Shown piece by piece: positions 37,254 to 56,722 of a stretch of 64,000 bases of DNA. The stretch covers positions 62,001 through 126,000 of the forward strand of contig NZ_JABFHG010000010.1 of assembly GCF_013112485.1 (NCBI RefSeq), read 5' to 3'. Made by a program: the position numbers and the translations under genes. Numbering within the stretch: the first letter of the stretch is position 1; every line of letters starts with the position of its first letter. Under the pieces are notes generated by a model, which was not told where the DNA came from, did not search any database, and worked only from the letters and a program-made list of their open reading frames with translations. Source of the DNA: Roseicella sp. DB1501. Lineage in GTDB: Bacteria; Pseudomonadota; Alphaproteobacteria; Acetobacterales; Acetobacteraceae.

Positions 37254-40200
37254 ATGGCAGCACGACGCGGCAGCAAGCCGAAAGCAGCGGCGCCTGCGGC
37301 GACATCCGTGACGGCGCCCGCGCCGTCACCTGCGGCAGCGCCCATGACGGCACCCGCGGCGACAGCCGAGGCGGTGCCCGCGCCGAAACCCGCCGCGACG
37401 CCCACGCCGGCGCCTGCCGCGGCGCCTGCGTCATCTCCTGCCGCGGCGCCTGCGTCATCTCCTGCCGCGGCGCCTGCGCCGACGCCCGTGGCCGGGCCGC
37501 CCGCGCCCCGCATCTATCTGCTGCATCCCCTCCTGGTGGGCGCACTGCCCAGGTGGGATGGGGCCTTCGCGCGCGCGGCGGAGCTCGGCTTCGATACGGC
37601 GCTGATCGCCCCGCCCTTCGCCGCCGGCCCCACCGGGAACATCTTCCACCTGGCCGATCCGGGCGCGCCGCATCCCATCCTCGAGGCCAGCGGCGACGCG
37701 ACCGCGACCCTCGCCGAGCTTGCCGCCAAGGCGAAGGCCGCCGGCCTGGCCCTCTATCTCGACATCGTGCTCGACCGCGTCGCCGCCGAGGGCGCCATGC
37801 GCGCCGAGCACCGCGCCTGGTTCGAGGGAGATGGCCCGTCCGGCCTGCCCGACCCGCGGCATGCCCCGCCCGAGCAGGGCACCGTGCGCCCGCGCTGGGA
37901 GGATCCGGCCGTCGCCGAGGCGCTCGGCGGCTGGTGGGAGGAGCGGCTTCGCGGCTTCGCCGAGGCCGGCATCGTCGGCTTTCGCTGCAACGCCCCGCAC
38001 CAGGTCCCCGTCGCGCTGTGGCGGCGGCTGACGGCCGCCCTGCCGCAATGCCGCTTCCTCGCCTGGACGGCCGGCGTGCCGGCCGGCGCGCTGGCGCCGC
38101 TCGCCGAGGCCGGCTTCGCCGCCGTCTTCGACAGCCTGGGCTGGTGGGACCTGAAGGGCGGCTGGCTGACCGAGGAGGCCGCGCGCCTCGCCGCCATCGC
38201 GCCGGTGATCGCCACGGTGGAGCCCCCCTTCGGCCCGCGCCTCGCCGCCCGCAACGCGGATAGCTGGAGCGCCGAGCGGGAGGCGCAGCGCCAGCTTCGC
38301 CTCGCCTGCGGCATCGGCAGCGGCATCCTGGTGCCGATGGGCTTCGAATACGGCGCCCGCCGGCCGCTCGACCCGGCGCGCGACCGGCCCGGGGACTGGG
38401 ACTGGCTGCGCGACCATGCCGGCTTCGACCTCTCGGCCGAGCTGCGCGCGGCGAATGCCATGCTGTCCGACCGCGTGATGACGCAGGCGGAGCTGCGGCC
38501 CCTCGCCGGCCCCGGCGGCCCGGTCGTGGCGCTGTTGCGCGCGGCCACGCCGGATGTGCGCGAGGCCCAGGCGGCGACGCTGGTCCTGGCCAATCCGGAT
38601 TTGCACAACGGCGCCAGCGTCGCGCTCACCACGCTGCTGCCCGGCGCCGGCGCCGCCTTCGCCCGCTTCCGCCCGGTCTCGCCGGCGACGGCCGGGCTGC
38701 TGGCGCCCGGCGCGACGGTGCAGCTCGGCGCCGGCGAGGTGCGGCTCTATGCCGCGGAGCCGCCGCGGCCGATCCTCACCGCCGCCGCGGCCACGCCGGC
38801 GCCGGATGTCGCGGCCGCCGCGGCGGCGCCGCGCATCGGCATCGAGGCGGTGACGCCGGCGGTCGATGGCGGGCGCTTCCCGGTCAAGCGCACGGTCGGC
38901 GAGGTGGTCGAGGTCACCTGCGACCTGATCTGCGACGGCCATGACAAGCTCGGCGCCGTCCTGCTCTGGCGCGCCGTCGACGAGACGGCCTGGTCCGAGA
39001 CCCGCATGGTGCCGCTCGGCAACGACCGCTGGATGGCGCGCTTCCCGCTGGAGCGGATGGGGCGCTACCTCTTCGCCGTCGAGACCTGGCGCGACGCCTT
39101 CGCCACCTTCCGCGACGAGCTCGAGAAGAAGCACGCGGCCAATGTGCCGATCGGCCTCGAGCTGGAGGAAGGCCGCATCCTGGTGACCAAGGCCGGCAAG
39201 CGGGCCGGCGGCGCGCTGACCGGCCTCGCCGAGCGCCTCCAGGGCGCGCCGGACCAGGAGCGGCTGACGCTGCTGATGGCGCCCGAGACGGCGCGCCTCA
39301 TGGCCGAGGCCGACGACCGCCCCTTCCGCGCCCGCAGCCCCGAGATGCCGCTCGATGCCGAGCGCACCGGCGCGGGCTTCGCCAGCTGGTACGAACTCTT
39401 CCCCCGCAGCCAGAGCGGCGAGGCGACGCGGCACGGCACCTTCGACGACGTCATCCGCCGCCTGCCGCATATCCGGGCAATGGGCTTCGACGTGCTGTAC
39501 TTCCCGCCCATCCACCCGATCGGCCGGGCTTTCCGCAAGGGGCGCAACAACACGCTGACGCCGGGGCCGGACGACCCCGGCAGCCCCTATGCCATCGGCT
39601 CGGAGGAGGGCGGGCACGACGCCATCCATCCGCAGCTCGGCACGCTGGAGGATTTCCGCCGCCTGGTCGCGGCGGCGAAGGAGCACGGGCTCGAGCTGGC
39701 GCTCGACTTCGCCATCCAGTGCAGCCCGGACCATCCCTGGCTGCAGCAGCACCGCGAGTGGTTCGACTGGCGGCCGGACGGCTCGCTCCGCTACGCCGAG
39801 AATCCGCCGAAGAAGTACCAGGACATCGTCAACGTCGATTTCTACAACGAGGGTTCCGTTCCCTCGCTCTGGACGGCGCTGCGCGACGTGGTGCGCTTCT
39901 GGGTGGATCAGGGCGTGCGGCTGTTCCGCGTGGACAACCCGCACACCAAGCCCTTCCCCTTCTGGGAATGGCTGATCGCCGATATCCGCGCGCAATGCCC
40001 GGATGCGGTGTTCCTGGCCGAGGCCTTCACCCGGCCGAAGGTGATGAACCGGCTGGCCAAGGTCGGCTTCAGCCAGTCCTACACCTACTTCACCTGGCGC
40101 AACACCAAGCCGGAGATCCAGGAATACCTGACCGAGTTGACGACGACGGCGCAGCGCGACTTCTTCCGCCCGCATTTCTTCGTCAACACGCCCGACATCA

Positions 40201-40754
40201 ACCCGCCCTTCCTGCAGACCGGCGGCCGCGGCGGCCATCTCATCCGCGCCTTCCTGGCGACCACCCTCTCCGGTCTCTGGGGCATGTATCAGGGCTTCGA
40301 GCTCTGCGAGGCGACGCCGTTGCCGGGGCGGGAGGAGTACCTGGATTCGGAGAAGTACGAGATCCGCGTCTGGCCGGACCGGCGGCCTGGCGACATCGTG
40401 GACGAGATCACCCGCCTGAACATGATCCGCCGCGCCAACCCCGCGTTGCAGACCCATCTGGGCATCGCCTTCCACAACGCCTTCAATGAACAGGTCCTGT
40501 GGTACCGGAAGGCCACCGCGGACCGGAGCAACGTGGTGCTGTGCGCCGTCAGCCTCGACCCGCACAACGTCCAGGAGGCGGCGGTCGAGCTGCCGCTCTG
40601 GGAATGGGGGCTGCCGGATCATGCGGCGCTGGAGGCGGAGGATTTGATGACGGGTTGGCAGTTCACCTGGCACGGCAAAGTGCAGCGGCTTCGGCTCGAT
40701 CCCGGCGGCCTGCCCTTCGGGATCTGGCGGGTGCGACCGGCGGGGGGCCTGTGA
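37254..40754 (+). CDS. glgE: GlgE: alpha-1,4-glucan:maltose-1-phosphate maltosyltransferase with extra N-terminal pseudo-catalytic domain
   Basis: About 1166 residues, against roughly 660-700 for actinobacterial GlgE. Order: an Ala/Pro linker (residues 8-83, with a tandem 8-residue repeat); a GH13-like barrel (about 85-520); then the GlgE N-domain ([21 protein letters not shown]) and catalytic barrel. Catalytic residues are Asp894 ([11 protein letters not shown]), Glu923 (FLAEAFTRP) and Asp981 (NTPDINPP). In the first barrel the equivalent blocks read [11 protein letters not shown] (Asn246) and FLAWTAGVP (Trp271), so it cannot be a normal retaining hydrolase. The enzyme adds maltosyl units from maltose-1-phosphate to alpha-glucan. 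ATG 37254 follows GGGGGA. Its stop overlaps treS (TGATG). Confidence 0.93.
37413..37478 (+). repeat. 24-bp tandem repeat in the glgE linker
   Basis: About 2.75 copies of a 24-bp unit (37413-37436, 37437-37460, then 18 bp of a third). They encode PAAAPASS repeats in the Ala/Pro linker before the first barrel. In-frame slippage here would change linker length only. Confidence 0.85.
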
Positions 40755-43700
40755 TGTCCCGTCGCAGCGATGACGGGCGGGATCTCAGCCCCTCCATGTC
40801 CGAACTGCGCGCGGCCGCCCAGCCGGCCGCCGCGCCGCCGCGCCGCGGGCCGGGCTCGGCGTCGCGGGCCACGACGCATCCGCGCGACCCGCTCTGGTAC
40901 CGCGACGCGGTCATCTACCAGCTGCACGTGAAGAGCTTCTTCGACGCCAACGACGACGGCGTCGGCGATTTCGCCGGCCTGCTGCAGAAGCTCGACTACA
41001 TCGCCGAGCTCGGCGTCGACACGCTCTGGCTGCTGCCCTTCTATCCGAGCCCGCTGCGCGACGACGGCTACGACATCGCCGACTATCGCGGGGTGAACCC
41101 GAGCTACGGCACGCTGCAGGATGCCCGCCGCTTCGTGCGGGAGGCGCATGCCCGCGGCCTCAAGGTCATCACCGAGCTGGTCATCAACCACACCAGCGAC
41201 CAGCATCCCTGGTTCCAGCGCGCCCGCAACGCGCCGCCCGGCTCCCTGCACCGCAACTACTACGTCTGGTCGGACACGGACCAGAAATACGACGGCACGC
41301 GCATCATCTTCCTCGACACCGAGAAGTCCAACTGGACCTTCGATTCGGTGGCCGGGCAGTATTTCTGGCACCGCTTCTACAGCCACCAGCCGGACCTGAA
41401 TTTCGAGAATCCGCGCGTCCTGTCGGAAGTGCTGAACGTGATGCGCTTCTGGCTCGATATCGGCATCGACGGGCTGCGGCTCGACGCCGTGCCCTATCTG
41501 CGCGAGCGCGAGGGCACGAACAACGAGAACCTGCCGGAGACGCATGAGGTGCTGCGGCTGATCCGCAGCAAGCTCGACCAGGGCTTCCAGGGCCGCATGC
41601 TGCTCGCCGAGGCCAACCAGTGGCCGGAGGACACGCAGCAATATTTCGGCAACGGCGACGAATGCCAGATGGCCTTCCACTTCCCGCTGATGCCCCGGAT
41701 GTACATGGGCATCGCGCAGGAGGATCGCTTCCCGATCACCGACATCCTGCGGCAGACCCCCGACATCCCGGATGGCTGCCAGTGGGCGATCTTCCTGCGC
41801 AACCATGACGAGCTGACGCTCGAGATGGTCACCGACCGGGAGCGGGACTATCTTTGGAACACCTATGCCGCCGACAAGCGGGCGCGCATCAATCTCGGCA
41901 TCCGCCGCCGGCTCGCGCCGCTGCTCGAGCGCGACCGCCGCCGCATCGAGCTGATGAACGGCCTGCTGCTCTCCATGCCCGGCACGCCGGTGATCTATTA
42001 CGGCGACGAGATCGGCATGGGCGACAACATCTTCCTGCGCGACCGTGACGGCGTGCGCACGCCGATGCAGTGGTCGCCCGACCGCAATGGCGGCTTCTCG
42101 AAGGCCGATCCGGCGGCGCTGGTCCTGCCGGTGCTGCAGGACCCGCTCTACGGCTACCAGGCGGTGAATGTCGAGACGCAGTCGCGCGACCCGCACAGCC
42201 TGCTGAACTGGATGCGCCGCATGCTGGCGGTGCGCAAGCGCAGCCGCGCCTTCGGCCGCGGCAGCATGCGGCTGCTCTATCCGGCGAACCGCAAGGTGCT
42301 GGCCTATCTGCGGGAATACGACGGCGACACCATCCTCTGCGTCTTCAACCTCTCCCGCTCGGCGCAGGCGGTAGAGCTCGACCTCTCCGCCTGCAGCGGG
42401 CAGGTGCCGGTGGAGATGCTGGGTGGCACGAGCTTCCCGCCGATCGGCCAGCTTCCTTACCTGCTGACCCTGCAGCCCTATGGCTTCTACTGGTTCGTCC
42501 TTGCCACCGAGAAGGCGCTGCCGCCCTGGCACGCCCCCTCGCCCGAGCCGTTGCCTGACCTCCGAACCCTTGTCCTGAAGGCCGACGTGAAGGAACTCCT
42601 TGGCGACGCCGTTCGCGGCGAGATCGAGCGGGACATCCTGCCCGCCTACCTCCCGAAGCGGCGCTGGTTCGCCGCCAAGGGCGAGACGCTGGAAGGCGTC
42701 CGCCTGACCGCCATCGCCGCCCTGCCCGAGGCGAAGGGCGCGGTGGTCATGGCCGAGGTCGAGGCCAGGCTGCCGGGCCGGGTCGAGCGCTACGCGCTGC
42801 CGCTCGGCGGCGTCGAGGACACCGACGGCATCGGACCGCTGCCGGCGCAGCTCGCCCTCACGCGGCTGCGGCAGGGTCGGCGGGTCGGCTTCCTGACCGA
42901 CGCCTTCGCCGACAACCGGCTCCCGCCCTCCATCCTGCAGGCGCTGCGCGATGGCCCGGTGCTGAAGACCGATGACGGCGAGATCCACTTCCGGTCCACC
43001 TCGCGCCTCGCCGAGCTGACCCTGCCGGAAGCGCCGGAGATCCGCCGGCTCTCGGCCGAGCAGTCCAACTCCTCGCTCATCTACGGCGAGCAGGTGGTGC
43101 TGAAGATCATCCGGCGCATCAATCCGGGCATCCATCCGGAAGCCGAGATGACGCGCTACCTGACCGAGGCAGGCTTCGCCAATACGGCGCCGCTGCTCGG
43201 CGAGGTGGTTCGCATCGCGCCGGATGGCACGCCGAACACGCTGATGCTGGCCCAGGGCTTCGTCCGCAACCAGGGCGATGGCTGGGCCTGGACGCTCGAC
43301 TGGCTTGGCCGGGCCGTGGATGAGGCGGCGCTGACCGAAACGCCGCCGGAGGATCCCTTCGCCGGCTATCTGGCCTTCGCCGGCGCGCTCGGCCGCCGGC
43401 TGGGCGAGCTGCACGCGGCCCTGGCGCAGCCGACCGACCAGCCGGCCTTCGCACCGGAGACGGCGACGGAGCAGGACCGCGAGGGTTGGGCGAAGGGGGC
43501 GCTGGAACAGCTTGATCCGGCGCTCGAGCTGCTGCGCTCGCGCGAGCTGCCGGAGGATATCGCCCCGCTCGCCGAGCGGCTGCTGGCGCGGGCCGATGCG
43601 CTGCGCGCGGCGACGCACCGGCTGGCGCAATCGGCGGCGGGCGCGCTGAAGACGCGTGTGCATGGCGACTTCCACCTGGGCCAGGTGCTGGTGGCGCAGG

Positions 43701-44119
43701 GCGATGCCGTCATCGTCGACTTCGAGGGCGAGCCGGCGCGGCCGCTCTCCGAGCGACGCGCCAAGGGCAGCCCGCTGCGCGACGTCGCCGGCCTGCTGCG
43801 CAGCTTCGACTACGTGGCGCATGTGGCGAACTCGACGGAGGGCTCGGGCGCCTCGGCCGCCGCGCCCACCGAGCGGCGCACGGCGCTGATCGCCCGCTGG
43901 CAGCAGCAATCCGAGCACGCCTTCCTCGAGGCCTATCACGCGGCGGAGGCCGCCGCGCCCAATCCCTGGGTGCCAGCGGACGCCGAGGCTGCCCTGCTCG
44001 ATCTCTTCCTGATCGAGAAGGCGGCGTACGAAATCCGCTACGAGGCGGCGAACCGTCCGGCCTGGATCGGTGTGCCGCTGCGTGGCCTTGCCTCCCTGGC
44101 GGAGCGGATCACTGCATGA
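40754..44119 (+). CDS. treS: Trehalose synthase-maltokinase fusion (TreS-Mak)
   Basis: About 1121 residues. After a low-complexity N-terminus, residues about 45-600 form a GH13 Tre[20 protein letters not shown], nucleophile Asp244 ([11 protein letters not shown]), Glu286 (LLAEANQ) and Asp352 (RNHDE). It isomerises trehalose and maltose. Residues about 605-1110 are a Pep2/maltokinase with its typical opening [19 protein letters not shown], and catalytic HGDFHLGQV (970-978) followed by VDFEGEP. It uses ATP to make maltose-1-phosphate, the GlgE substrate. Fusion channels trehalose to GlgE and is known in several phyla. It overlaps both neighbours (TGATG and ATGA), so glgE-treS-glgB is one coupled unit. 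Confidence 0.95.
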
Positions 44120-46278
44120 ATCAGTCCTATGACGCGCTGGCCGCGGGTCGCCACGGCGACCCGTTCTCCCTCCTCGGTCCGCATGATGGCGAGGTGCGCA
44201 GCTTCCAGCCCGGGGCGCGCAGCGTCGTGGTGCTGGCGCGCGACGGCGGCGAGGAGATCGGCCGGCTCGAGAAGGTGCATCCGGCCGGCCTCTTCTCCGG
44301 CCGGGTGTCGCGCCAGGTGCCCTATCGCTTGCGGATCGAGTGGCCGGGGCTGACGCAGGAGACCGAGGACCCCTATGCCTTCGGCCTGCTCCTCGGGGCG
44401 CTCGACCTGCATCTCTTCGGCGAGGGCCGGCATTTCGAACTGGCCAAGGTGTTCGGCGCACAGGCGATGGAGGTGGAGGGGGTGCCCGGCGTGCGCTTCG
44501 CGCTCTGGGCGCCGAATGCGCGCCGCGTCTCGGTCGTCGGCGACTTCAACGGCTGGGACGGGCGGCGCCACCCGATGCGGCTGCGGCCGGAAGCGGGCGT
44601 GTGGGAGCTGTTCATCCCGCGCCTGCAGCCCGGGGCCGTCTACAAGTACGAGCTGGTCGGGCCGGACGGGGCGCTGCTGCCGCTGAAGGCCGACCCGATC
44701 GCCCAGGCAACGGAATTGCCGCCCGCCACCGCCTCCCGCGTCCTCGATCCAGCGCCTTTCGCCTGGACGGACGAGGCCTGGATGGCGCGGCGTGGCGCGG
44801 CGCAGGCGCCGGGCGCGCCGATCTCGATCTACGAGGTGCATGCCGGCTCCTGGTGGCGCGACGCGGATGGCGAATCGCTCGACTGGGACCGGCTGGCCGA
44901 CCGGTTGCTGCCCTATGTGCAGGGCATGGGCTTCACCCATCTCGAATTCCTGCCCATCATGGAGCACCCCTTCGGCGGCTCCTGGGGCTACCAGCCGCTC
45001 TCCATGTTCGCGCCCAGCGCCCGGTTCGGCCCGCCCACAGGCTTCGCCCGGTTCGTCGACCGCGCCCATGCCGCCGGCATCGGCGTCATCCTCGACTGGG
45101 TGCCGGCGCATTTCCCGACCGATGCGCATGGCCTCTACCGCTTCGACGGCACCGCGCTCTACGAGCATGCCGACCCGCGCGAGGGCTTCCACCGCGACTG
45201 GAACACGGCGATCTACAATTTCGGCCGCAACGAGGTGCGCGGCTTCCTGCTCGCCAGCGCGATGCATTGGCTGGAGCACTACCATGTGGACGGGCTGCGC
45301 GTGGATGCCGTGGCCTCCATGCTCTACCGCGACTACTCCCGCCCGGCTGGCGAGTGGATCCCGAACCGCTTTGGCGGGCGGGAGAATCTCGAGGCCGTCG
45401 CCTTCCTGCAGGAGATGAACGCCGTCGTCGCGGAACGCTGCCCTGGCGCCGTCACCATCGCCGAGGAGAGCACCGCCTGGCCCGGCGTGACCCGGCCGAC
45501 CGGCGAAGGTGGCCTCGGCTTCGACTACAAATGGAACATGGGCTGGATGCACGATTCGCTCCACTACATCGAGCAGGATCCCGTGCACCGGCAGTACCAC
45601 CACGACAGCATGACCTTCGGCCTGGTCTATGCCTGGAGCGAGAAGTTCATCCTGCCCCTCAGCCATGACGAGGTGGTCTACGGGAAGGGCTCGCTCTTCG
45701 GGAAGATGCCGGGCGACACCTGGCAGAAGCTCGCCAATCTCCGCGCCTATCTGAGCTTCATGTGGACGCATCCCGGCAAGAAGCTGCTCTTCATGGGCGG
45801 CGAGATCGCCCAGCCGGCCGAGTGGAACCACGATGCCAGCATCGCCTGGCCGCTGCTCGATGATGCCGGGCATCGCGGCATCCAGCGCCTGGTGAGCGAC
45901 CTCAACGCCGCCTATCGCGCGATGCCGGCGCTGCACCGCCTGGATGCCTCGCCGGAGGGCTTCCGCTGGGTGGTCGGCGACGACCGGGCGCAGAGCGTCT
46001 TCGCCTATCTGCGCTTCGGCGGCGCGGATGATCCGCCGGCCCTCGTCGTCTGCAACATGACACCGTTGCCGCGCCACGACTACCGGATCGGCGTTCCCCG
46101 CGGCGGCGCCTGGCACGAGATGTTGAACTCTGACGGTGCCGCCTATGGCGGGACCAACAGCGGCAACGGTGGTTGGATCACGGCCGAGGCGATCCCGGCG
46201 CACGGCTACGGCGAAAGCCTCAACCTGTTCCTGCCGCCGCTCGCCGTTCTTGTCCTCGTGCCGCAGGGCGGCAGCTAG
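44116..46278 (+). CDS. glgB: 1,4-alpha-glucan branching enzyme
   Basis: 720 residues, standard length with two N-terminal CBM48-like modules ([37 protein letters not shown]). Catalytic residues Asp397 ([11 protein letters not shown]), Glu450 (IAEES) and Asp518 ([12 protein letters not shown]) sit close to the E. coli positions. It makes alpha-1,6 branches on chains extended by GlgE. It starts within the treS stop (ATGA). Its own stop codon TAG is provided by the first bases of a dispersed repeat (family B, 46275-46381), so the repeat arrived at, or defines, the exact 3' end. Confidence 0.96.
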
Positions 46279-46381: not shown

Positions 46382-46463
46382 CGCCTGACCTTGCCCTTCC
46401 GGGCCGCAGGCCTGGGACGGCAGGGCGGGTCGGGGCATGGAACGTCCAGCCCGAAGGGATAGT

Positions 46464-48569
46464 ATGCCGCCCATTCCGAACAGCTTGCATCCCGGCCGGC
46501 CCGACCCGCTGGGGGCGAACTGGGACGGGCTCGGGGTCAATTTCGCCGTCTTCTCGGCGAATGCCGAGCGGATCGATCTCTGCCTCTTCGATCCCTCCGG
46601 GCGGCGGGAAATTGCCCGCCTGCCCTTGCCGGAATGCACCGATGAGGTCTGGCACGGCTACCTGCCCGAGGCGCGGCCCGGGCAGATCTACGGCTACCGC
46701 GCCTATGGTCCCTACGAGCCGCGCCGGGGCCACCGTTTCAACCCGCACAAGCTGCTGCTCGACCCCTATGCGAAGCAGCTGCATGGCGATTTGCGCTGGT
46801 CGGACGTGCTACTCGGCTACCGGCCAGGCGGCGGCCGCACCGACCTGTCCTTCGACCGGCGCGACAGCGCCCCGGCCATGCCGAAATGCGTGGTGGTCGA
46901 TGACAGCTTCGCCTGGGGCGACGACCGCAATCCCTGCGTGCCCTGGGACCGCACCGTCATCTACGAGGCGCATGTCCGCGGCCTGACCATGCGGCGGGAG
47001 GATATCGCGCCGCGCGAGCGCGGCACCTTCCGGGCGCTGGCCGATCCGCGGGTGATCGAGCACCTGCAGCGGCTCGGCATCACCAGCATCGAGCTGCTGC
47101 CGATCCAAGCCTTCCTGCAGGACCGTTTCCTCGTCGCCAAGGGCCTGCGGAATTACTGGGGCTACTCGACCCTCGCCTTCTTCGCGCCGGAGCCGCGCTA
47201 CCTGATCGAATCCTGGATGCGCAACGAGTTGAAGGTGGCCGTGCGCCGCCTGCACGGCGCCGGGATCGAGGTCATCATGGACGTGGTCTACAACCACACC
47301 TGCGAGGGCAGCGAGCTCGGCCCCACGCTGTGCTGGCGCGGCCTCGACAACGCCTCCTACTACCGGCTGATGCCGGGCGACGAGCGGCACTGCATCAACG
47401 ACACCGGCACCGGCAACACCGTCAACCTCAGCCATCCGCGCGTGCTGCAGATGGTCATGGACAGCCTGCGCTACTGGGTGACGGAGTACCGCATCGACGG
47501 TTTTCGATTCGATCTCGGAACGATTTTGGGCCGCGAGGGCACCGGCTTCGATCCCGGCAGCGGCTTCTTCGACGCGGTGCGTCAGGACCCCGTCCTTTCC
47601 CGCGTCAAGCTGATCTCCGAGCCCTGGGATATCGGCCCGGGCGGCTATCAGCTCGGCAACCACCCGCCCGGCTTCGCCGAATGGAACGACCGCTTCCGCG
47701 ACGGCATCCGCCGCTTCTGGCGCGGCGACCGCGGCATGCGGGCCGAGCTGGCGGCGCGGCTGACCGGCTCGGCCGAGCTCTTCGACCATCGCCGGCGCCG
47801 GCCCTGGGCGAGCGTCAACTACGCCGCCTCGCATGACGGCTACACGCTGCTCGACGTCGTCTCCTACGAGCAGAAGCACAACGAGGCGAATGGCGAGGAC
47901 AACCGGGACGGCCACGGCGAGAACTGCAGCCGCAACTGGGGTGTCGAGGGCGAGACGAAGGACCCGGAGATCCTCGCCGTCCGGCATGCGGTGCTGCGGG
48001 CGATGCTGCTGACCGTCTTCGCCTCCGCCGGCACGCCGATGCTCCTCGCCGGCGACGAGATGCTGCGGACCCAAAAGGGCAACAACAACGCCTACAACCA
48101 GGACAACGAGACGAATTGGGTGGACTGGGAACGGGCGGCGACGCCGGAGGCGCTGGCGCTGCAGCGCTTTGCCACCCGCCTGATCGGCCTGCGGCGGCGC
48201 CTCGCCCCGCTGCGGCCGCCGATCTTCCTGCACGGCGTCACGGAACTCCGGCCCGGCCTGAACGACATTGCATGGTTCGATCAGCACGGAAGAGCCATGA
48301 CGCCCGAGGCCTGGAACGATCCCGAGGGGCGCACCCTCGCGCTGCGCCGCGCCGCTGCTGCCGAGGATGGCAGCGTCGAGGTGACGCTGCTGCTGCTGAA
48401 TGCCAACAGCGCCGGGCATGCCTTTGCCCTGCCGGCGCCGCGGCTCGATTGGACCCTGGTGCTGGACAGCGGCCATCCGGAAGCGGAGGAGCGGCCGGTG
48501 CTGGATGAGGCCGTCCCTGTCGCGCCGCACGGCGCCGTTCTGCTCGCGGCGCGGCTGCCCGCGGCATGA
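46464..48569 (+). CDS. glgX: Glycogen debranching enzyme GlgX
   Basis: About 701 residues. The N-terminal CBM48 (PLGANWDGLGVNFAVFSANAE) is followed by the GH13 barrel with Asp350 (IDGFRFDLGTILGRE), Glu386 (LISEPWD) and Asp458 (ASHDGYTLLD). GNNNAYNQDNETNWVDW and the earlier YWGYSTLAFFAPEPRY are GlgX/isoamylase-specific. It cleaves alpha-1,6 branches to give linear malto-oligosaccharides, the feed for TreY. ATG 46464 is chosen for its AGGGAT Shine-Dalgarno. The stop overlaps treZ (ATGA). A gap of about 185 bp containing the family B repeat precedes it, so it may have its own promoter or depend on readthrough. Confidence 0.95.
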   Translation: MPPIPNSLHPGRPDPLGANWDGLGVNFAVFSANAERIDLCLFDPSGRREIARLPLPECTDEVWHGYLPEARPGQIYGYRAYGPYEPRRGHRFNPHKLLLDPYAKQLHGDLRWSDVLLGYRPGGGRTDLSFDRRDSAPAMPKCVVVDDSFAWGDDRNPCVPWDRTVIYEAHVRGLTMRREDIAPRERGTFRALADPRVIEHLQRLGITSIELLPIQAFLQDRFLVAKGLRNYWGYSTLAFFAPEPRYLIESWMRNELKVAVRRLHGAGIEVIMDVVYNHTCEGSELGPTLCWRGLDNASYYRLMPGDERHCINDTGTGNTVNLSHPRVLQMVMDSLRYWVTEYRIDGFRFDLGTILGREGTGFDPGSGFFDAVRQDPVLSRVKLISEPWDIGPGGYQLGNHPPGFAEWNDRFRDGIRRFWRGDRGMRAELAARLTGSAELFDHRRRRPWASVNYAASHDGYTLLDVVSYEQKHNEANGEDNRDGHGENCSRNWGVEGETKDPEILAVRHAVLRAMLLTVFASAGTPMLLAGDEMLRTQKGNNNAYNQDNETNWVDWERAATPEALALQRFATRLIGLRRRLAPLRPPIFLHGVTELRPGLNDIAWFDQHGRAMTPEAWNDPEGRTLALRRAAAAEDGSVEVTLLLLNANSAGHAFALPAPRLDWTLVLDSGHPEAEERPVLDEAVPVAPHGAVLLAARLPAA

Positions 48570-50362
48570 GCGGCTTCGCGCAGGAAACCGCCTGGGGCGC
48601 GACGCTGCTCGCGGATGGCCGGACGCGCTTCCGCCTCTGGGCGCCGGATGCGCCCGAGGTGGCGCTCGAGGTCGAAGGGCAAGCGCCGCAGCCGATGACG
48701 GCGCAGGAGGAGGGCTGGCACGAGGCGGTCGCAGCCGTCGGCGCCGGCGCCCGCTACCGCTTCCGGGTCTCGCCCGACCTCGCCGTGCCCGACCCGGCCT
48801 CGCGGCTGCAGGCGGGCGACGTGCACGACCCCTCGGTGGTCCTCGACCCCCGCGCCTATGCCTGGCGGCAGCCAGGCTGGACGGGCCGGCCCTGGCACGA
48901 GACGGTGCTCTACGAGCTGCATGCCGGCACCATGGGCGGCTTCGCCGGCGTCGAGGCGGCGCTGCCGCGGCTCGCCGAACTCGGCGTCACCGCCATCGAG
49001 CTGATGCCGATCAACGCTTTCCCGGGCCAACGGAACTGGGGCTATGACGGCGTGCTGCCCTATGCGCCGGATGCCACGCTTGGCACGCCCGAGGCGCTGA
49101 AGTCCCTGATCGACGCCGCGCACGGCCTCGGCCTGATGGTCTTCCTCGACGTCGTCTACAACCATTTCGGCCCGGACGGCGCCTATCTGCACGCCTATGC
49201 GAAGACCTTCTTCGACGAGGGCATCCACACTCCCTGGGGCGCCGCGATCGACTTCAAGAAGCCGGCGGTGCGCAGCTTCTTCGAGGACAACGCCCTCTAC
49301 TGGCTGAACGAGTACCGCTTCGACGGGCTGCGCTTCGACGCGGTGCACGCCATCGCCGAGGAGTCCTGGCTCGACGCGCTCGCCGCCCGCATCCGGCGCG
49401 AGATCCCCGACCGGCATGTGCATCTGGTGCTGGAGAACGAGCGCAACGGCGCGCATCACCTGCGCCCCGCCGGCGAATTCGATGCCCAGTGGAACGATGA
49501 TGGCCACAACATCCTGCACCCGCTGCTGACCGGCGAGCGCGAAGGCTATTACGAGGATTTCGCCGAGGACGGCGCAACCAAGCTGGCCAAGGTGCTGGCC
49601 GAGGGCTTCTTCTTCCAAGGGCAGGTGAGCGCCCATCTCGGCGAGAAGCGCGGCGAGCCCTCGGCGCATCTGCCGCCGACCGCCTTCGTGCTCTTCCTGC
49701 AGAACCACGACCAGGTGGGGAACCGCGCCTTCGGCGAGCGGCTCACGGCCCTCGCCGAGCCACAGGCGCTGGCGGCGGCGACGGCGCTGCTGCTGCTCTC
49801 GCCGCAGATCCCGATGCTATTCATGGGCGAGGAATGGGGCGCCAGCGCGCCCTTCCTCTTCTTCACCGACCACAATGCCGAGCTCGCGCCGCTGGTCACC
49901 GCCGGGCGGCGCAAGGAATTCGCCAAGTTTGCCGCCTTCCAGGATCCGGCGCGGCGCGAGCGCATCCCGGACCCCAATGCCGAGCAGACCTTCCGCGACT
50001 CCATCCCCGACCCGGGGGAGGCGAGCCGGCCGCCGCATGATGCGGTGCTGGCGCTGCACCGGCGGCTGCTCGCGCTGCGGCGCGAGCGGATCGTCCCGCA
50101 TTTGCCGGGCGCGCGCGCCCTCGGCGCACAGGCGGTGGGGGAGAAGGCGGTGCTGGCCCGCTGGCGCCTCGGCGATGGCAGCATCCTGACCCTCGCCGTC
50201 AATCTCGGCGAGGCGCCGGCTCCCTGCACCTTGCCTGACGGCGCGGGCGGCGAGACGCTGTTCGAGGGTCTTTCCGGGGCCGCCGGCAGGCTTGCCACCG
50301 GAACGCTGCTGCCGCGTTGCACGATCGCCCTGCTGTCGCCGCCACCGGCGGCGGGCGGATGA
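48566..50362 (+). CDS. treZ: Malto-oligosyltrehalose trehalohydrolase
   Basis: 598 residues. N-terminal carbohydrate-binding module (RFRLWAPDAPEVALEVEG), then a GH13 barrel with Asp258 (FDGLRFDAVHAI), Glu290 (LVLENER) and Asp382 (LQNHDQVGNRAFGERL). FMGEEWGASAPFLFFTDH is characteristic of TreZ. It releases free trehalose from the maltooligosyl-trehalose made by TreY. TreY is encoded two genes downstream, with malQ between them. It starts in an ATGA overlap with glgX and ends 13 bp before malQ. Confidence 0.95.
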   Translation: MSGFAQETAWGATLLADGRTRFRLWAPDAPEVALEVEGQAPQPMTAQEEGWHEAVAAVGAGARYRFRVSPDLAVPDPASRLQAGDVHDPSVVLDPRAYAWRQPGWTGRPWHETVLYELHAGTMGGFAGVEAALPRLAELGVTAIELMPINAFPGQRNWGYDGVLPYAPDATLGTPEALKSLIDAAHGLGLMVFLDVVYNHFGPDGAYLHAYAKTFFDEGIHTPWGAAIDFKKPAVRSFFEDNALYWLNEYRFDGLRFDAVHAIAEESWLDALAARIRREIPDRHVHLVLENERNGAHHLRPAGEFDAQWNDDGHNILHPLLTGEREGYYEDFAEDGATKLAKVLAEGFFFQGQVSAHLGEKRGEPSAHLPPTAFVLFLQNHDQVGNRAFGERLTALAEPQALAAATALLLLSPQIPMLFMGEEWGASAPFLFFTDHNAELAPLVTAGRRKEFAKFAAFQDPARRERIPDPNAEQTFRDSIPDPGEASRPPHDAVLALHRRLLALRRERIVPHLPGARALGAQAVGEKAVLARWRLGDGSILTLAVNLGEAPAPCTLPDGAGGETLFEGLSGAAGRLATGTLLPRCTIALLSPPPAAGG

Positions 50363-50375
50363 CGAAGGGACTGGC

Positions 50376-52412
50376 ATGACCACGGACCAGGAGCTGCGCG
50401 ACATGGCCGAGGCGGTGGGCATCGCCACCGCCTGGCGTGACGTGCGCGGCGAGGAGAAGCACGTCGCGCCCGAGACTCTGCGCGCCGTGCTCGCCTCCAT
50501 CGGCGTGCCGCTCGATGCCGGCGAGGCGCAGGCGACGCTCAAGGCGCTGGCCGAGCGCCTGCCGCCGCTGATCACCATGACCATCGGCCCGGACGGCGTG
50601 CACATCCCCGGCGCCGCGGTCGGCCAGCGTTTCCGGCTGGAGATCGAGGGCGGTGACCGGGTGGAGGGGCATCTCGAACGCGGCTGGGGCGGCGAGCCGC
50701 GCCTGCCCGGCATCTCCACGCCGGGCTACCACCGGCTGCATCTCGACGATGCGCATTGCATCGTCGCCGCGGCGCCGCCGCGTTGCCTGACCCTGGCCGA
50801 TCTCGGCGCCGCCACGCATGGCGGCAGCCTGCCCTGGGCGTTGGCGGCGCAGATCTATTCCCTGCGCTCGCCGCGCGACATGGGCATCGGCGATTTCGGC
50901 GGCGTCGCGGCACTGGCGCATGCCGCCGGGCGCCGCGGCTGCGCCGCCATCGCGGTCAGCCCGGCGCATGCGCTTTTCGCCGCCGATCCGGGGAAATACG
51001 GCCCCTACTCCCCCTCCTCGCGCATCTATCTCAACACGCTTTATGCCGATCCGGCGGCGGTCCTCGGCGCCCAGCCGGATGAGTCAGGGCCGAAGGATGC
51101 GCTGATCGACTGGCCTGCCGCGGCGCGGCGCAAGCTGGCCCGGCTGCGGCGGCTCTTCGCCGAGGCCAGCGACCATCCGGATTTCGTCGCCTATCGCAGC
51201 GAGGCCGGCGCGACGCTCGAGGCGCATGCCCGTTTCGAGGCCTTGCATGCGCATCTGCTGGCGCGGGATCCCGGCCTCTGGCACTGGCGCGACTGGCCGG
51301 CCGAATTCGCGGCGCCGGACAGTCCCGGCGTGGTGCGCTTCGCCCGTGACCATGCCGCCGAGATCGCCTTCCACGCCTTCTGCCAGTGGCTGGCAGACGC
51401 CTCGCGCGGCGCCGCGCAGCAGGCGGCGCGCGAGGCCGGCATGCCGATCGGCCTCATCGCCGATCTCGCCGTCGGCACGGATGGCGGCGGCAGCCATGCC
51501 TGGTCGCGTCAGCGCGCCATCCTGCCGGACGTGACCGTCGGGGCGCCCCCTGACATCTTCTCGCCGCTCGGCCAGGATTGGGGGCTGACCGCCTTCTCGC
51601 CGCTCGAGATGACGGCGGGTGGCTTCGGTGCCTATCTCGAGCTGCTCCGCTCCGCCTTCCGCCATGCCGGCGGCGTGCGGGTGGACCATGCCATGGGGCT
51701 GCAACGGCTCTGGGTGGTGCCGCGCGGCGCCGGTCCGGCCGAGGGCGCCTATCTGCGCTATCCGATCGACGACCTGCTGCGGCTGCTCGCCCTTGAATCG
51801 CATCGCCACCGGGCGATCGTCATCGGCGAGGATCTCGGCACGCTGCCGGAGGGCTTCTACGACCGCATGGAGCAGGCGGGCATCCTCGGGATGCGGGTGC
51901 TGTGGTTCGAGCAGGAGACGGATGGCCGTTTCCGGCCGCCGCAGGACTGGTCGCGCAACGCCGCGGCGATGACGACGACGCATGACCTGCCGACCGTGGT
52001 CGGCTGGTGGCAGGGCCGCGACATCGGCTGGCGCGCCCGTCTCGGCCTCTTCCCCGATGCCGAGACGGTGGCGGGCGAGGAGCGGCGGCGGGAGGAGGAT
52101 CGCGCCGCGCTCTGGACCGCCTTCCTCGAGAGCGGCGCGGCGAGCGGCGACCAGCCGGCGGAAGCGGCGGCCACGACGGTGGTCGATGCCGCGCTCGCCC
52201 ATGTCGGCAGCGCCGCCTGCGCGCTCGCCATCCTGCCGCTCGAGGACGCGCTGGCCCTGCCCGAGCAGCCGAACCTGCCCGGCACGGTGGAGCAGCATCC
52301 GAATTGGCGCCGCCGCCTCGCCGGCGATGCCGGCAAGCTGCTCGATGACCCGGCAGTGGCGCAGCGGCTCGACCGCTTCGCGCGCGCCCGCCCGCACGTC
52401 CCGCCGCACTGA
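50376..52412 (+). CDS. malQ: 4-alpha-glucanotransferase
   Basis: About 678 residues, GH77. A non-catalytic N-terminal region (about 1-150) precedes the barrel, which begins ALAAQIYSLRSPRDMGIGDF. Catalytic residues are Asp437 (GGVRVDHAMGL), Glu485 (IGEDLGTLP) and Asp537 (TTHDLPT). It disproportionates malto-oligosaccharides, recycling the short chains left by TreY/TreZ and debranching. ATG 50376 follows AAGGGA after a 13-bp gap. The MalQ-TreY gap (117 bp) holds an imperfect 11-bp direct repeat (52431-52441 and 52446-52456) but no clear promoter. Confidence 0.94.
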   Translation: MTTDQELRDMAEAVGIATAWRDVRGEEKHVAPETLRAVLASIGVPLDAGEAQATLKALAERLPPLITMTIGPDGVHIPGAAVGQRFRLEIEGGDRVEGHLERGWGGEPRLPGISTPGYHRLHLDDAHCIVAAAPPRCLTLADLGAATHGGSLPWALAAQIYSLRSPRDMGIGDFGGVAALAHAAGRRGCAAIAVSPAHALFAADPGKYGPYSPSSRIYLNTLYADPAAVLGAQPDESGPKDALIDWPAAARRKLARLRRLFAEASDHPDFVAYRSEAGATLEAHARFEALHAHLLARDPGLWHWRDWPAEFAAPDSPGVVRFARDHAAEIAFHAFCQWLADASRGAAQQAAREAGMPIGLIADLAVGTDGGGSHAWSRQRAILPDVTVGAPPDIFSPLGQDWGLTAFSPLEMTAGGFGAYLELLRSAFRHAGGVRVDHAMGLQRLWVVPRGAGPAEGAYLRYPIDDLLRLLALESHRHRAIVIGEDLGTLPEGFYDRMEQAGILGMRVLWFEQETDGRFRPPQDWSRNAAAMTTTHDLPTVVGWWQGRDIGWRARLGLFPDAETVAGEERRREEDRAALWTAFLESGAASGDQPAEAAATTVVDAALAHVGSAACALAILPLEDALALPEQPNLPGTVEQHPNWRRRLAGDAGKLLDDPAVAQRLDRFARARPHVPPH

Positions 52413-52529: not shown

Positions 52530-55331
52530 ATGGCGAACACGGCGCGCGACACCGGGCCGGCAGGCCCGCGCGCTACCGCACGCCTGCAATTCCACGCCGG
52601 CTTCACCCTGGATGACGCCGTGCCGCTGGTACCCTATCTCGCGCAACTCGGCATCAGCCATCTCTACGCCTCGCCGATCCTGAAGGCGCGGCCCGGCTCG
52701 ACGCATGGCTACGACATCGTCGACCACAACCAGATCAATCCCGAGCTCGGCGGCGAGCCGGCCTTCCGACGCCTCTCGGCGGCGCTGAAGGCGCATGGCC
52801 TCGGCCTCGTCATCGACATCGTGCCGAACCATATGGGCGTCGGCGGCTCGGACAATGCCTGGTGGCTCGACGTGCTCGAATGGGGCCGCCAGAGCCCCTA
52901 TGCCAGCTTCTTCGACATCGACTGGGACCCGCCGGACCGCTCGCTCTCCGGCCGCATGCTCGCGCCCTTCCTCGGCGCCCCCTATGGCGAGGTGCTGGCC
53001 TCGGGCGACCTGACCCTGCAATTCGACCGCGCCGACGGGCGCTTTCACGCGCAGTATTTCGAGCACCGCTTCCCGATCGCGCCGCAGCACTACCACCACA
53101 TCCTGCAGGCGGCGGGCGATCCGCAGCTCGCCGACTTTGCCCTGGAATTCGGCCGGGTCGGGCTGCACCAGCGCGAGCGCGCCCAGGCGCGGGAACAGGC
53201 GGCGGCGCTGCGCGGCGCCCTCTCGGCGCGGGCCGAAACCGAGGCGGGCGCGGCGGGCATCGCCACCGCCCTCGCCGCCTTCGACCCGAAGACGGACTCA
53301 GGCCGGCAGGCCCTGCACCGGCTGCTGGAGCGGCAGCACTACCGCCTCGCCTGGTGGCGCGCCGCGGCGGACGAGATCAACTGGCGCCGCTTCTTCGACA
53401 TCACCTCCCTCGCCGGCATGCGGGTGGAACTGCCGGAGGTCTTCGACGCGACGCATGAGCTGATCCTGAAGCTTTATGCCGAGGGGTCGGTGGACGGGCT
53501 GCGCATCGACCATGTCGACGGCCTGGCCGATCCGCGCGGCTATTGCCGCAAGCTGCACCGCCGGATGCAGGCGGTGCGGCCGGGCCATCCGCCGCTGATC
53601 TGGGTCGAGAAGATCCTCGCCCCCTTCGAGGCGCTGCGCACCGACTGGATGGTGGACGGCACCACCGGCTACGACTTCATGGACGAGGCCTCCGGCGTGC
53701 TGCACGACCCGGAGGGCGAGGCGCCGCTCACCGCGCTCTGGACCGAGAGCACCGGCCGGCCCGCCGCCTTCGACGAGGAGGCCCGGCTCGCCAAGCGGCA
53801 GATCCTGCGCGACAACCTCGCCTCGGAGTTGAACGGCACCGCCGCCGCGCTGAAGCGGGTGGCGATGCGCGACCTCACCACGCGCGACTTCACCCTGACG
53901 GGCCTGCGCCGGACGCTCACCGAGGTGCTGGTGCATTTCCCGGTCTACCGGCTCTACATCACCCAGGGCGGCCGCAGCGCCGAGGACAAGCGCATCCTCG
54001 ACTGGGCGCTGGCCGGGGCGCGGCGGACGGTGCGGGCGACGGACCGGCCGCTGCTCGAGCTGCTCGATGCCTGGCTCGGCGGCGAGCCGCCGCGCAGCCT
54101 GCCGCCGGTGCAGCGGCGCGAGCGCCTCTCGGCGGCGGTGCGGGTGCAGCAGCTCTCCGCCCCGGTCACGGCGAAGAGCATCGAGGACACCGCCTTCTAC
54201 CGCTACGGCCGGCTGATCTCGCGCAACGAGGTCGGCTCCGATCCGGGCCGCTTCGCGGTGACGCCGGCCGGCTTCCACGCCAGCTCCCGGGCCCGGGCCC
54301 GGCACTTCCCCCGCGCCATGCTGGCGACCGCCACGCATGACCACAAGCGCGGCGAGGACGTCCGGGCGCGGCTCGCCGTGCTCTCCGAGCTGCACGAGGA
54401 ATGGGGCGCCGCGGTGCGCCGCTGGTCGCGGCTGAACGCCTCCCTGCGCAAGGAGCTGCCCGACGGCGCCGCACCGGGGATGAGCGCCCAGCTCATGCTC
54501 TACCAGACCCTGGTAGGGGCCTGGCCGCTGGGCCTCGCGCCCGGGGACGAGGCCGGGGTCGGCGCCTTCCTCGAACGGGTCGCCGCCTGGCAGGAGAAGG
54601 CGCTGCGCGAGGCCAAGCGCCGCACCGAATGGGCGGTGCCGAATGCCGAGTACGAGGCCGCCTGCCAGGAGTTCATCACCGCCATCATGGCGCCCGAGCG
54701 CGCCAGCCACATGCGCGAGGAGATCGCCGGCTTCGCCGCACGCATCGCCCCGGCCGGCGCGATCAACGGCCTCGCTCAGGCCCTGCTCCGCTGCACCGCG
54801 CCGGGCGTGCCGGATCTCTATCAGGGCACCGAGTTCTGGGACCTCTCCCTGGTCGACCCCGACAACCGCCGGCCGGTCGACTGGGAGGCCCGGCGCGCCG
54901 CGCTGCGGGATGCCGCGGCGCCGGACGCCCTGCTGGAGCACTGGCAGGACGGGCGGGTGAAGCAGGCGGTGATCGCCCGGGCCCTGGCGCTGCGGGCCAG
55001 CCGCGCCGCGCTCTTCGCCACCGGCGACTACCAGCCGATCGCCGTCGAGGGCCCCATGGCGCAGCACGTCCTCGCCTTCCTCCGTGGCGCGCGGGACCAG
55101 GCGGCGCTCACGGTCGTGATGCGGCTGCCGGCCCGGCCGCTCGGGGATTCGGCGTTGCCGCTGCTGCCGGCGGCGGAATGGCGCGGAACCGATCTGCTTC
55201 TGCCGCCTTCATGGCATGCACGGCACTGGCGGGACGCGCTGACCGGGGAGGGACAGCACGCTCGAGGTGACCGCCTGCCCGTCGGGCAGGTGCTCGCCCG
55301 CCTCCCAGTGGCGCTGCTGGAGGTGGGATGA
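52530..55331 (+). CDS. treY: Malto-oligosyltrehalose synthase
   Basis: About 933 residues. The opening ARLQFHAGFTLDDAVPLVPYLAQLGISHLYASPIL and STHGYDIVDHNQINPELGG are TreY-specific. Catalytic residues are Asp327 (GLRIDHVDGL), Glu360 (IWVEKIL) and Asp604 (TATHDHKRGEDVRARL). The large insertion typical of TreY lies between the second and third catalytic residues. It converts the reducing end of a malto-oligosaccharide to an alpha,alpha-1,1 linkage, making the TreZ substrate. ATG 52530 has GGAG 9 bases upstream; a TTG at 52512 is possible but lacks one. The stop overlaps otsA (ATGA). Confidence 0.95.
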   Translation: MANTARDTGPAGPRATARLQFHAGFTLDDAVPLVPYLAQLGISHLYASPILKARPGSTHGYDIVDHNQINPELGGEPAFRRLSAALKAHGLGLVIDIVPNHMGVGGSDNAWWLDVLEWGRQSPYASFFDIDWDPPDRSLSGRMLAPFLGAPYGEVLASGDLTLQFDRADGRFHAQYFEHRFPIAPQHYHHILQAAGDPQLADFALEFGRVGLHQRERAQAREQAAALRGALSARAETEAGAAGIATALAAFDPKTDSGRQALHRLLERQHYRLAWWRAAADEINWRRFFDITSLAGMRVELPEVFDATHELILKLYAEGSVDGLRIDHVDGLADPRGYCRKLHRRMQAVRPGHPPLIWVEKILAPFEALRTDWMVDGTTGYDFMDEASGVLHDPEGEAPLTALWTESTGRPAAFDEEARLAKRQILRDNLASELNGTAAALKRVAMRDLTTRDFTLTGLRRTLTEVLVHFPVYRLYITQGGRSAEDKRILDWALAGARRTVRATDRPLLELLDAWLGGEPPRSLPPVQRRERLSAAVRVQQLSAPVTAKSIEDTAFYRYGRLISRNEVGSDPGRFAVTPAGFHASSRARARHFPRAMLATATHDHKRGEDVRARLAVLSELHEEWGAAVRRWSRLNASLRKELPDGAAPGMSAQLMLYQTLVGAWPLGLAPGDEAGVGAFLERVAAWQEKALREAKRRTEWAVPNAEYEAACQEFITAIMAPERASHMREEIAGFAARIAPAGAINGLAQALLRCTAPGVPDLYQGTEFWDLSLVDPDNRRPVDWEARRAALRDAAAPDALLEHWQDGRVKQAVIARALALRASRAALFATGDYQPIAVEGPMAQHVLAFLRGARDQAALTVVMRLPARPLGDSALPLLPAAEWRGTDLLLPPSWHARHWRDALTGEGQHARGDRLPVGQVLARLPVALLEVG

Positions 55332-56722
55332 GCCGAATCGTCGTCGTCTCCAACCGCGTACCGGTCCCTCAGGGCAATGCCGGGCAGGCAGGTGGGCTGG
55401 CGGTTGCGCTCCTCGGGCTGATGCAGCGCCGGGGCGGGCTTTGGTTCGGGTGGAGCGGCGCGGTCACCGACGCCAACGCCCCGCCGGGCCTCACACAGCG
55501 GGGTGGCGTCGGCTACGCCACCATCGACCTGACGGAAGCGGAGCATCGCGGCTACTATACGGGTTACAGCAACGGCGTGCTCTGGCCGATGCTGCACGGG
55601 CTGCCGCATCTGATGAGCTTCCGCCGGCAGGACCTCGACATCTACCGCAAGGTCAACCGGCGCTTCGCTGACAACCTCGTCCCGCTGCTGCGGCGGGACG
55701 ACCGCATCTGGGTGCACGACTACCACCTCCTGGCTCTGCCCGGCGCGTTGCGGCAGCGCGGCGTGCTGGGCGCCACCGGCTTCTTCCTGCACGTGCCCTT
55801 CCCGGCCCCGGATGCCGCGGCCGTCGCGCCCGGCATCCGCGGCCTGGTGCAGGATGTGCTGCAATCCGACCTGCTCGGCTTCCAGACCGCCGCCGACCGC
55901 GACAATTTCGCCGCGACGGCGGTGGGCTTCGCCGGCGCGGCGCGGCTGTCCGAGGATGTGCTCGAGCTCGGCGGGCGGCCGGTGCGGCTCGGGATCTTCC
56001 CGGCCGAGATCGCGGCCCCGGAATTCGCCGCCACCGCCGCGGCGCAGGCCGCGTCCGAGCCCTATCAGCTCCTCGCCCGCTCGCTGCGCGGCCAGGCGCT
56101 GTTGCTCGGCGTCGACCGGCTCGACCCGACGAAGGGCCTGCCGGAGCGTCTGGAGGCCTTCCGCCGCGTCGTCGCCCGCCGCGCGCCGCGCAGCCTCGCC
56201 ATGCTGCAGATCGCCGCCCCCTCGCGCGAGGAGGTCATGGCCTATCGCCGCCTGCGGCAGGAGCTCGACAGCGCCGCCGGCGCCATCAACAGCGAGTTCG
56301 GCGAGCCGGACTGGGTGCCGCTGCGCCTCCTGGCGCGGCCGCAGACGCGCGATACCGTCGCCGGCTTCATGCGCCAGGCGCGTGTCGGCGTGGTGACGCC
56401 GATCCGCGACGGCATGAACCTGGTGGCGAAGGAATACGTCGCCGCGCAGGACCCGGCCGATCCGGGCGTGCTGGTCCTCTCGCGCTTCGCCGGCGCCGCG
56501 GCCCAGCTCTCCTCCGCCCTGCTGGTCAACCCGCATGATGCCGAGGGCATGGCGGAGACGATCTGCGCCGCGCTCGACATGCCGCTCGACGAGCGCCGGG
56601 CGCGCTGGCGGGAGTGCTGGGAGGCGATCGCCGACGCCTCGCCCGAGGGCTGGGGCGAGGCGTTCCTGCGCGCCCTCTCGCCCGAGGACCTCGCCCGGCT
56701 GCCGGTCGCCGGCACGGCCTGA
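55328..56722 (+). CDS. otsA: Trehalose-6-phosphate synthase
   Basis: 464 residues, GT20. The start SRIVVVSNRVP and GGLAVAL correspond to the glucose-6-phosphate site, with WVHDYHLLALP, LFFLH-type FFLHVPFPAP, GVDRLDPTKGLPERLEAF and the nucleotide-sugar site RDGMNLVAKEYVA. It makes trehalose-6-phosphate from UDP-glucose and glucose-6-phosphate. No otsB phosphatase follows and no OtsB-like C-terminal domain is fused, so the phosphatase must be encoded elsewhere. It overlaps treY by 4 bp and ends the cluster at a palindrome (56724-56739). Confidence 0.95.
   Translation: MSRIVVVSNRVPVPQGNAGQAGGLAVALLGLMQRRGGLWFGWSGAVTDANAPPGLTQRGGVGYATIDLTEAEHRGYYTGYSNGVLWPMLHGLPHLMSFRRQDLDIYRKVNRRFADNLVPLLRRDDRIWVHDYHLLALPGALRQRGVLGATGFFLHVPFPAPDAAAVAPGIRGLVQDVLQSDLLGFQTAADRDNFAATAVGFAGAARLSEDVLELGGRPVRLGIFPAEIAAPEFAATAAAQAASEPYQLLARSLRGQALLLGVDRLDPTKGLPERLEAFRRVVARRAPRSLAMLQIAAPSREEVMAYRRLRQELDSAAGAINSEFGEPDWVPLRLLARPQTRDTVAGFMRQARVGVVTPIRDGMNLVAKEYVAAQDPADPGVLVLSRFAGAAAQLSSALLVNPHDAEGMAETICAALDMPLDERRARWRECWEAIADASPEGWGEAFLRALSPEDLARLPVAGTA

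Follow-up and report, generated by a model that had tools for sequence, protein, structure and literature searches.

In a 64,000-nucleotide stretch of the genome of Roseicella sp. DB1501 (hereafter the window), the gene of the maltosyltransferase GlgE encodes an extra N-terminal domain of the glycoside hydrolase family 13 (GH13) type, which we call the N-domain. On balance, we think that it derives from a GH13 enzyme of separate ancestry that was joined to GlgE, lost its acid/base residue and later its nucleophile, and was kept as a non-catalytic module for glucan binding or regulation. The gene and the protein are laid out as follows.

37254-40754, forward strand: two-domain GlgE gene, 1,166 amino acids and a stop codon, with its ATG at 37254; Pfam GlgE_dom_N_S, Alpha-amylase and GLGE_C fall on the second half.
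37254-37508, forward strand: Ala/Pro-rich N-terminal segment of low complexity (residues 1-85), seen in the sequence.
37509-38834, forward strand: the GH13-type N-domain (residues 86-527), which lacks the catalytic triad and is counted here with a C-terminal beta region and a linker; from phmmer, profile and alignments.
37989-37991, forward strand: codon AAC of Asn246, nucleophile position by alignment; Asp in L002-L006 and L105.
38064-38066, forward strand: codon TGG of Trp271, acid/base position by alignment; Trp in 62 of 74 non-canonical homologues.
38208-38249, forward strand: region IV segment by alignment, with PF for the HD of canonical FPE[SN]HD.
38835-40751, forward strand: GlgE core (residues 528-1166) with N/S domain, catalytic barrel and C domain, including Asp894 and Glu923; Pfam, and 592 bits to 4u2y.

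The residue numbers and motifs of a first-pass annotation of this DNA are exact on the frame opening at 37254 (Asn246, Trp271 in FLAWTAGVP, Asp894, Glu923, MGFEYG, GDWDWL, MYQGFE). It had also read the first domain as GH13-like, with Asn246 and Trp271 at the nucleophile and acid/base positions, and our searches agree. With the N-domain alone as query, phmmer found the alpha-amylase 3dhu (E 0.00098), aligning GFRCN on GYRCD and FLAWTAG on WLAESAG. This sets Asn246 under the Asp and Trp271 under the Glu that we take, from what is known of GH13, to be the nucleophile and acid/base of that enzyme. A 14-row family profile scored 88 bits with 3dhu among solved structures, 81 with 4gkl and 79 with GlgE. 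By these comparisons, the first domain is GH13-like beyond chance. It lacks the full GH13 triad, having Asn246, Trp271 and Phe326 at the nucleophile, acid/base and stabiliser positions, and thus the residues for ordinary GH13 catalysis, as had been proposed; we infer from the sequence that its activity has been lost. Pfam and NCBIfam gave no match to the window N-domain searched alone.

The best solved relatives of the N-domain profile are thus maltogenic alpha-amylases of the 4gkl/3dhu type (T. neapolitana and L. plantarum). Canonical N-domains, by which we mean those with a complete triad, resemble such amylases in motifs of the GFRCD, AE and HD types; the N-domains nevertheless form a clade apart from sequences of this kind in both trees used below to trace their origin. 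The available text of one paper gives the T. neapolitana maltogenic amylase as the type enzyme of GH13_48 (PMC11239784). In Pfam, hDGE_amylase (the glucanotransferase domain of glycogen debranching enzyme) is the best match of two separate N-type genes, L061 and L062, over their first 80-100 residues, and its match also covers the N-domain of L154 and L088; it is a partial match only, and one that the window N-domain does not give.

The rest of the protein resembles GlgE of GH13_3 throughout. Pfam places the GlgE N/S domain at residues 526-704, Alpha-amylase at 718-894 and GLGE_C at 1073-1157 of the 1,166-residue protein, all in a single chain as in GlgE. Window residues 528-1166 align almost over the full length of Streptomyces coelicolor GlgE (4u2y), an alpha-1,4-glucan:maltose-1-phosphate maltosyltransferase. 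By hand count on the alignment, Asp894 and Glu923 correspond to its residues 394 and 423, those altered in the D394A and E423A mutant structure entries listed; the GlgE core therefore looks intact. The eight solved GlgE sequences listed have chains of 663-723 amino acids, which leaves no room for a further GH13 domain at the N-terminus like that of the window protein.

The two substitutions in the N-domain differ in their standing among homologues. In the first search, five of them (L002-L006, from Roseicella, Paracraurococcus, Dankookia, Belnapia and Crenalkalicoccus) read GFRCD against GFRCN in the window, and Trp is kept in each; L105, of the same genus as the window, likewise has Asp at position 246. 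Among these six genomes and that of the window, Asn246 has so far been seen only in the last. As marks of a pseudo-catalytic domain, then, Trp271 is shared and Asn246 had to be rejected.

A first profile (E 1e-5) matched in 24 of 289 genomes of the class and 39 of 299 of the phylum, plain GlgE barrels and other amylases included; in the proteins that carry the N-domain, it also scores about 21-50 bits against the second barrel. A second one (1e-15) matched in 41 of 385 class genomes and in 65 of 150 genomes of the window's family, GlgE barrels included; the named members of this family are Roseomonadaceae in NCBI. By hand count, 61 of these 65 genomes have a match in an open frame of at least 900 codons, and 60 show a second, N-domain match apart from the GlgE barrel. 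No match row of the family table contains an internal stop. We fetched 50 stretches from the 65 genomes. The resulting set of 93 aligned domains, window included, is a draw from the searches rather than a census. It is free of L104, L108 and L109 (repeat records of L002, L006 and L005), and the family contributes 54 rows to it, among them the window, L002-L006 and L075. Three stand-alone genes, L157-L159, are left out of the canonical and non-canonical counts.

Longer two-domain GlgEs, which the annotation mentioned for alphaproteobacteria, were found in number: the N-domain is fused to GlgE in many homologues. The complete Asp-Glu-Asp triad occurs in 14 of the 93 domains (L061-L066, L085-L089, L154-L156), with motifs of the types DLV[IV]NH, GFRCDAAY, AETLG and FPE[SN]HD; 11 of these are fused to GlgE, L061 and L062 are separate genes, and L089 is followed on its contig by a late-starting, broken-up GlgE frame. 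The annotation had made its pseudo-catalytic reading depend on homologues not keeping Asp and Glu at the aligned sites. Some of them do keep these residues: Asp in the close relatives, and both in these 14 domains. Within the window's family, no row out of 54 has the triad, Trp stands at the acid/base position in 48 and Asp at the nucleophile position in 14. For non-canonical domains in general, Trp is found in 62 of the 74 that have a residue there; since an earlier conservation set had been selected on Trp, and was circular for Trp271, this count was redone without that selection.

Individual proteins illustrate the range. The N-domain of WP_109333952.1 from Azospirillum thermophilum has complete motifs; QJS31154.1 of Rhizobium leguminosarum TA1 has Leu at the nucleophile position and Trp at the acid/base; WP_045592850.1 of Burkholderia multivorans keeps the nucleophile Asp and has Gly at the acid/base. 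Public records name such proteins 'maltotransferase domain-containing protein' or GlgE and leave the N-domain unnamed. One gene, L072 (G012, 3748-4893, reverse strand), a relative of the complete-motif L066, has Asn at the nucleophile and keeps the Glu and the HD motif; by its residues, this is a different route of loss from that of the Trp group.

The order of losses was read on a 92-row tree built by a quick method, with Shimodaira-Hasegawa-like approximate likelihood-ratio (SH-aLRT) support only and with the two catalytic columns left out. On one side of a single branch (SH-aLRT 99) lie 74 of the 76 non-canonical domains; the exceptions are L076, which joins the non-canonical group at 88, and L072, which falls with canonical L066. 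The nucleophile, scored as Asp or not, needs at least 14 changes on this tree, and the acid/base, scored as Glu, Trp or other, at least 8. The simplest reading would be one early change of Glu to Trp, some later losses of Trp and many later losses of Asp, of which Asn246 is a recent one.

Conservation in non-canonical domains is high at W298 (73/74), W304 (73/75), D170 (71/75), R244 (70/76) and E308 (69/76). The last position holds Gln in 14 of 14 canonical domains. Other states new to the non-canonical domains are Asp174 (55/73), Pro325 (56/76) and Phe326 (45/63). In 21 pairs of seven sequences, the ratio of nonsynonymous to synonymous substitution rates (dN/dS, Nei-Gojobori) was 0.26-0.58 for the N-domain and 0.13-0.33 for the core, dS being rough in sequence this rich in GC. 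By this estimate the N-domain is under purifying selection, and we therefore favour a non-catalytic module, putatively for glucan binding or regulation.

We propose the following course of events. A GH13 domain of separate ancestry would have been joined in front of an ordinary-looking GlgE. Along the lineage of the window's family and of relatives like those in Rhizobium, the acid/base Glu would have changed to Trp and the HD of region IV to PF. The nucleophile Asp, no longer needed, would then have drifted away many times, leaving Asn in the window. Kept under selection with its set of putative pocket residues, the N-domain probably has a non-catalytic role, and may hold an alpha-glucan chain near GlgE or tune GlgE. 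For this glucan-holding or regulatory role in particular we see the chances as about even, with a scaffold role ranked next.

Several observations weigh against this proposal. Trp is not universal at the acid/base position: of the 74 non-canonical domains, the other 12 have Asp in five cases, Glu in three, Gly in two and Ala or Ser in one each. On the 92-row tree, the Trp label by itself implies a minimum of seven gains or losses, so that a single Glu-to-Trp event is no more than the simplest reading. The most degenerate N-domains, such as L073-L077, are hard to align, and some residue calls in them are unsure. W298, W304, D170 and R244 also occur in canonical domains and may be structural. 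An AlphaFold model of the N-domain from a six-row alignment reached a mean predicted local distance difference test score (pLDDT) of 60.6, with most of its confident part in the first half of the barrel and long stretches of the second half below 50, and the full-length model reached 47. With the N-domain model as query, Foldseek ranked GlgE first (E 2.9e-15), but at a template modelling (TM) score of 0.39 and a root-mean-square deviation of 18.8. As the models are this weak, the barrel assignment, on which the annotation had also made its reading depend, rests on sequence and not on them.

The first-pass annotation had proposed that the GlgE barrel was duplicated in tandem within the protein and that one of the two turned into a pseudoenzyme. 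Both barrels are indeed GH13, and the top ten Foldseek matches are all GlgE. The parallel that it drew between MGFEYG and MYQGFE is plausible too, the family profile aligning to GlgE over positions 11-388, but we take it for a general GH13 feature and not for a sign of duplication. A 59-row tree separates the N-domains (support 100/97) from the GlgE barrels (100/100), each group being a clade of its own. L157 and L158, two GH13 genes that stand alone, are sister to the N-domains, and the N-domain clade together with this pair stands beside GlgE rather than other sampled GH13 groups (99/97), a placement that taken by itself speaks for duplication. A second tree included two Streptomyces GlgEs and omitted the GlgX, GlgB and TreZ of the window (long branches), L050, L053 and L056 (GlgE), and L159, which was dropped from all trees. 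It again separated the N-domains (99/98) from the GlgE barrels, both Streptomyces sequences among the latter (100/100). The best tree with N-domains arising inside proteobacterial GlgE was worse by 59.5 log units (p-AU, the p-value of the approximately unbiased test, 8e-5), and duplication at that point was rejected on the separate clades and this value. Long branches meet in both trees, where the program marks such joins as perhaps spurious, the composition of several N-domain rows is unusual, and region IV of GlgE is out of register with that of the N-domains in the alignment of the second tree; for these reasons, the sister relation of N-domain and GlgE is uncertain. Canonical N-domains moreover carry the ordinary amylase motifs DLVINHT and PESHD, not the DFAIQC and NTPD of GlgE, and alpha-amylases score above GlgE, narrowly, among the solved relatives of the profile. 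Under the tree model, the N-domain is of ancestry separate from the GlgE barrel. We regard the tandem duplication as very improbable, while an ancestor common to N-domain and GlgE, older than all sampled GlgE, is possible.

Other alternatives concern what the domain does now. It could be purely structural or oligomer-forming, its fold a scaffold without ligand: the best conserved residues are mostly Gly, Trp, Pro, Ser and Asp common to canonical domains, as a fold core would give, and the nucleophile position ranks only 207th of 349 in conservation. We hold this to be unlikely in view of the new conserved states at or near the putative pocket, namely Trp271, Asp174, Pro325 and Glu308 in place of an invariant Gln, although the pocket-facing position of Glu308 is itself putative. 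A functionless relic, decaying as selection relaxes, would account for the N-domain evolving faster than the core in 21 of 21 pairs, as relaxed constraint would give and thus a further point against our proposal, for the repeated loss of the nucleophile and for the marked reduction of the domain in some lineages (L077 has 308 aligned residues, the window 442). A dN/dS well under 1, the persistence of an N-domain match in 60 of the 65 matching family genomes and its freedom from internal stops make such a relic distinctly unlikely. Finally, the domain might be an enzyme refitted for catalysis by different acidic residues, such as Asp170 and either Glu308 or Glu323. The replacement of Gln308 by Glu and the conservation of Asp170 would suit it; yet Glu323 and Asp170 are also present in canonical domains, the place of Glu308 in a pocket is putative, and we know of no GH13 catalysis that works with positions 170, 308 and 323. 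We consider this highly improbable.

How a separate-ancestry domain came to be fused can be approached from the stand-alone genes. L157 (5004-6734, reverse strand) and L158 (1574-3058, reverse strand) have full catalytic motifs and come from two small (1.4 Mb) alphaproteobacterial genomes; none of seven glycogen and trehalose genes was found in their fetched stretches. As an outgroup of stand-alone genes, on long branches, they lean towards fusion. L159 (4510-5844, reverse strand) is a divergent stand-alone GH13 gene near a second GH13 gene, at 117 bits to the N-domain profile. A stand-alone gene was not accepted as the proven ancestral state: L061 and L062 are nested among fused N-domains. 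Since, in addition, L162 and L163, the GlgEs of their genomes, fall with fused as well as with single-domain GlgEs, fission and fusion are equally possible.

Downstream of glgE, the window carries further genes of glycogen and trehalose metabolism. The names TreS-maltokinase, GlgX, TreZ, TreY and OtsA are our assignments from domain combination or sequence type.

40748-44119, forward strand: presumed TreS-maltokinase type fusion (Pfam Alpha-amylase, Malt_amylase_C, APH).
44116-46278, forward strand: GlgB branching enzyme (Pfam GlgB_N, CBM_48, Alpha-amylase).
46437-48569, forward strand: presumed GlgX-type debranching enzyme (CBM_48 and Alpha-amylase).
48566-50362, forward strand: presumed TreZ-type trehalohydrolase (Alpha-amylase and DUF3459).
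50376-52409, forward strand: MalQ, a GH77 4-alpha-glucanotransferase (Glyco_hydro_77).
52530-55328, forward strand: presumed TreY-type maltooligosyltrehalose synthase (Alpha-amylase).
55328-56719, forward strand: presumed OtsA-type trehalose-6-phosphate synthase (Glyco_transf_20).

Opposite glgE runs an antisense frame of 1,072 codons (37455-40673, reverse strand). Similar long antisense frames lie over the neighbouring genes, and all of them seem to stem from high GC.

The separate N-type gene of L061 seems to share 4 bases with treZ, with treY next in line, and that of L062 also adjoins treZ and treY; in both genomes, a single-domain GlgE is on another contig. The order in L065 and L085-L088 is MalQ, TreY, N-GlgE, TreS. 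The canonical fusions L064, L066, L155 and L156 adjoin TreS alone, L154 and L164 have none of the seven searched genes beside the fusion in the fetched stretch, and L063 ends at a contig edge; the link to TreY and TreZ is therefore not general. L164 (5983-9306), carried by a plasmid of Azospirillum, combines the two-domain GlgE architecture with a full set of N-domain motifs; a PPK2 polyphosphate kinase is encoded close by, and the 13 kb shown contain neither treS nor glgB. The ancestral N-domain enzyme may have been a GH13 active on alpha-glucans in partnership with the TreY-TreZ branch. More tentatively, and with considerable doubt, the two-domain GlgE may have begun as a bifunctional protein that combined a complete GH13 site, taken from a gene of the TreZ-TreY branch, with maltosyl transfer; the change of Glu to Trp would then have converted that site into a conserved pocket that senses or anchors glucan and sets the activity of GlgE in the window's family, Rhizobium and related lineages.

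GH13 domains without activity are reported from other proteins. Those of rBAT/4F2hc are reported to be inactive in the part of PMC8537225 available, and the accessible text of a review describes, for Criblamydiaceae and Waddliaceae, a GlgA-GlgB fusion whose branching domain is inactive (PMC11046441). Both resemble the window protein, with its putative inactivity, in that a GH13 domain without activity is kept in a fusion or complex; they differ in their partners. A literature search on GlgE with fusion, two-domain or additional-domain gave, among the matches listed, no paper describing the N-domain by its title or the start of its abstract. In the available text of the review the word 'pseudoenzyme' does not occur, and its passages name TreS-kinase and GlgA-GlgB fusions, not one of N-domain and GlgE (PMC11046441). 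According to the same passages, very little work has been done on how the GlgE pathway is regulated (PMC11046441).

The GH13 domain accompanies GlgE as a fusion in many alphaproteobacteria as well as in some other Pseudomonadota, complete in some and degenerate in others, and is an obvious candidate for a regulator or a partner activity. Proteins annotated as 'maltotransferase domain-containing protein', that of A. thermophilum cited above among them, may be bifunctional. The N-domain family offers a graded natural series for studying the passage from enzyme to pseudoenzyme; if a bifunctional origin followed by a sensing pocket is true, that series would lie inside one protein family.

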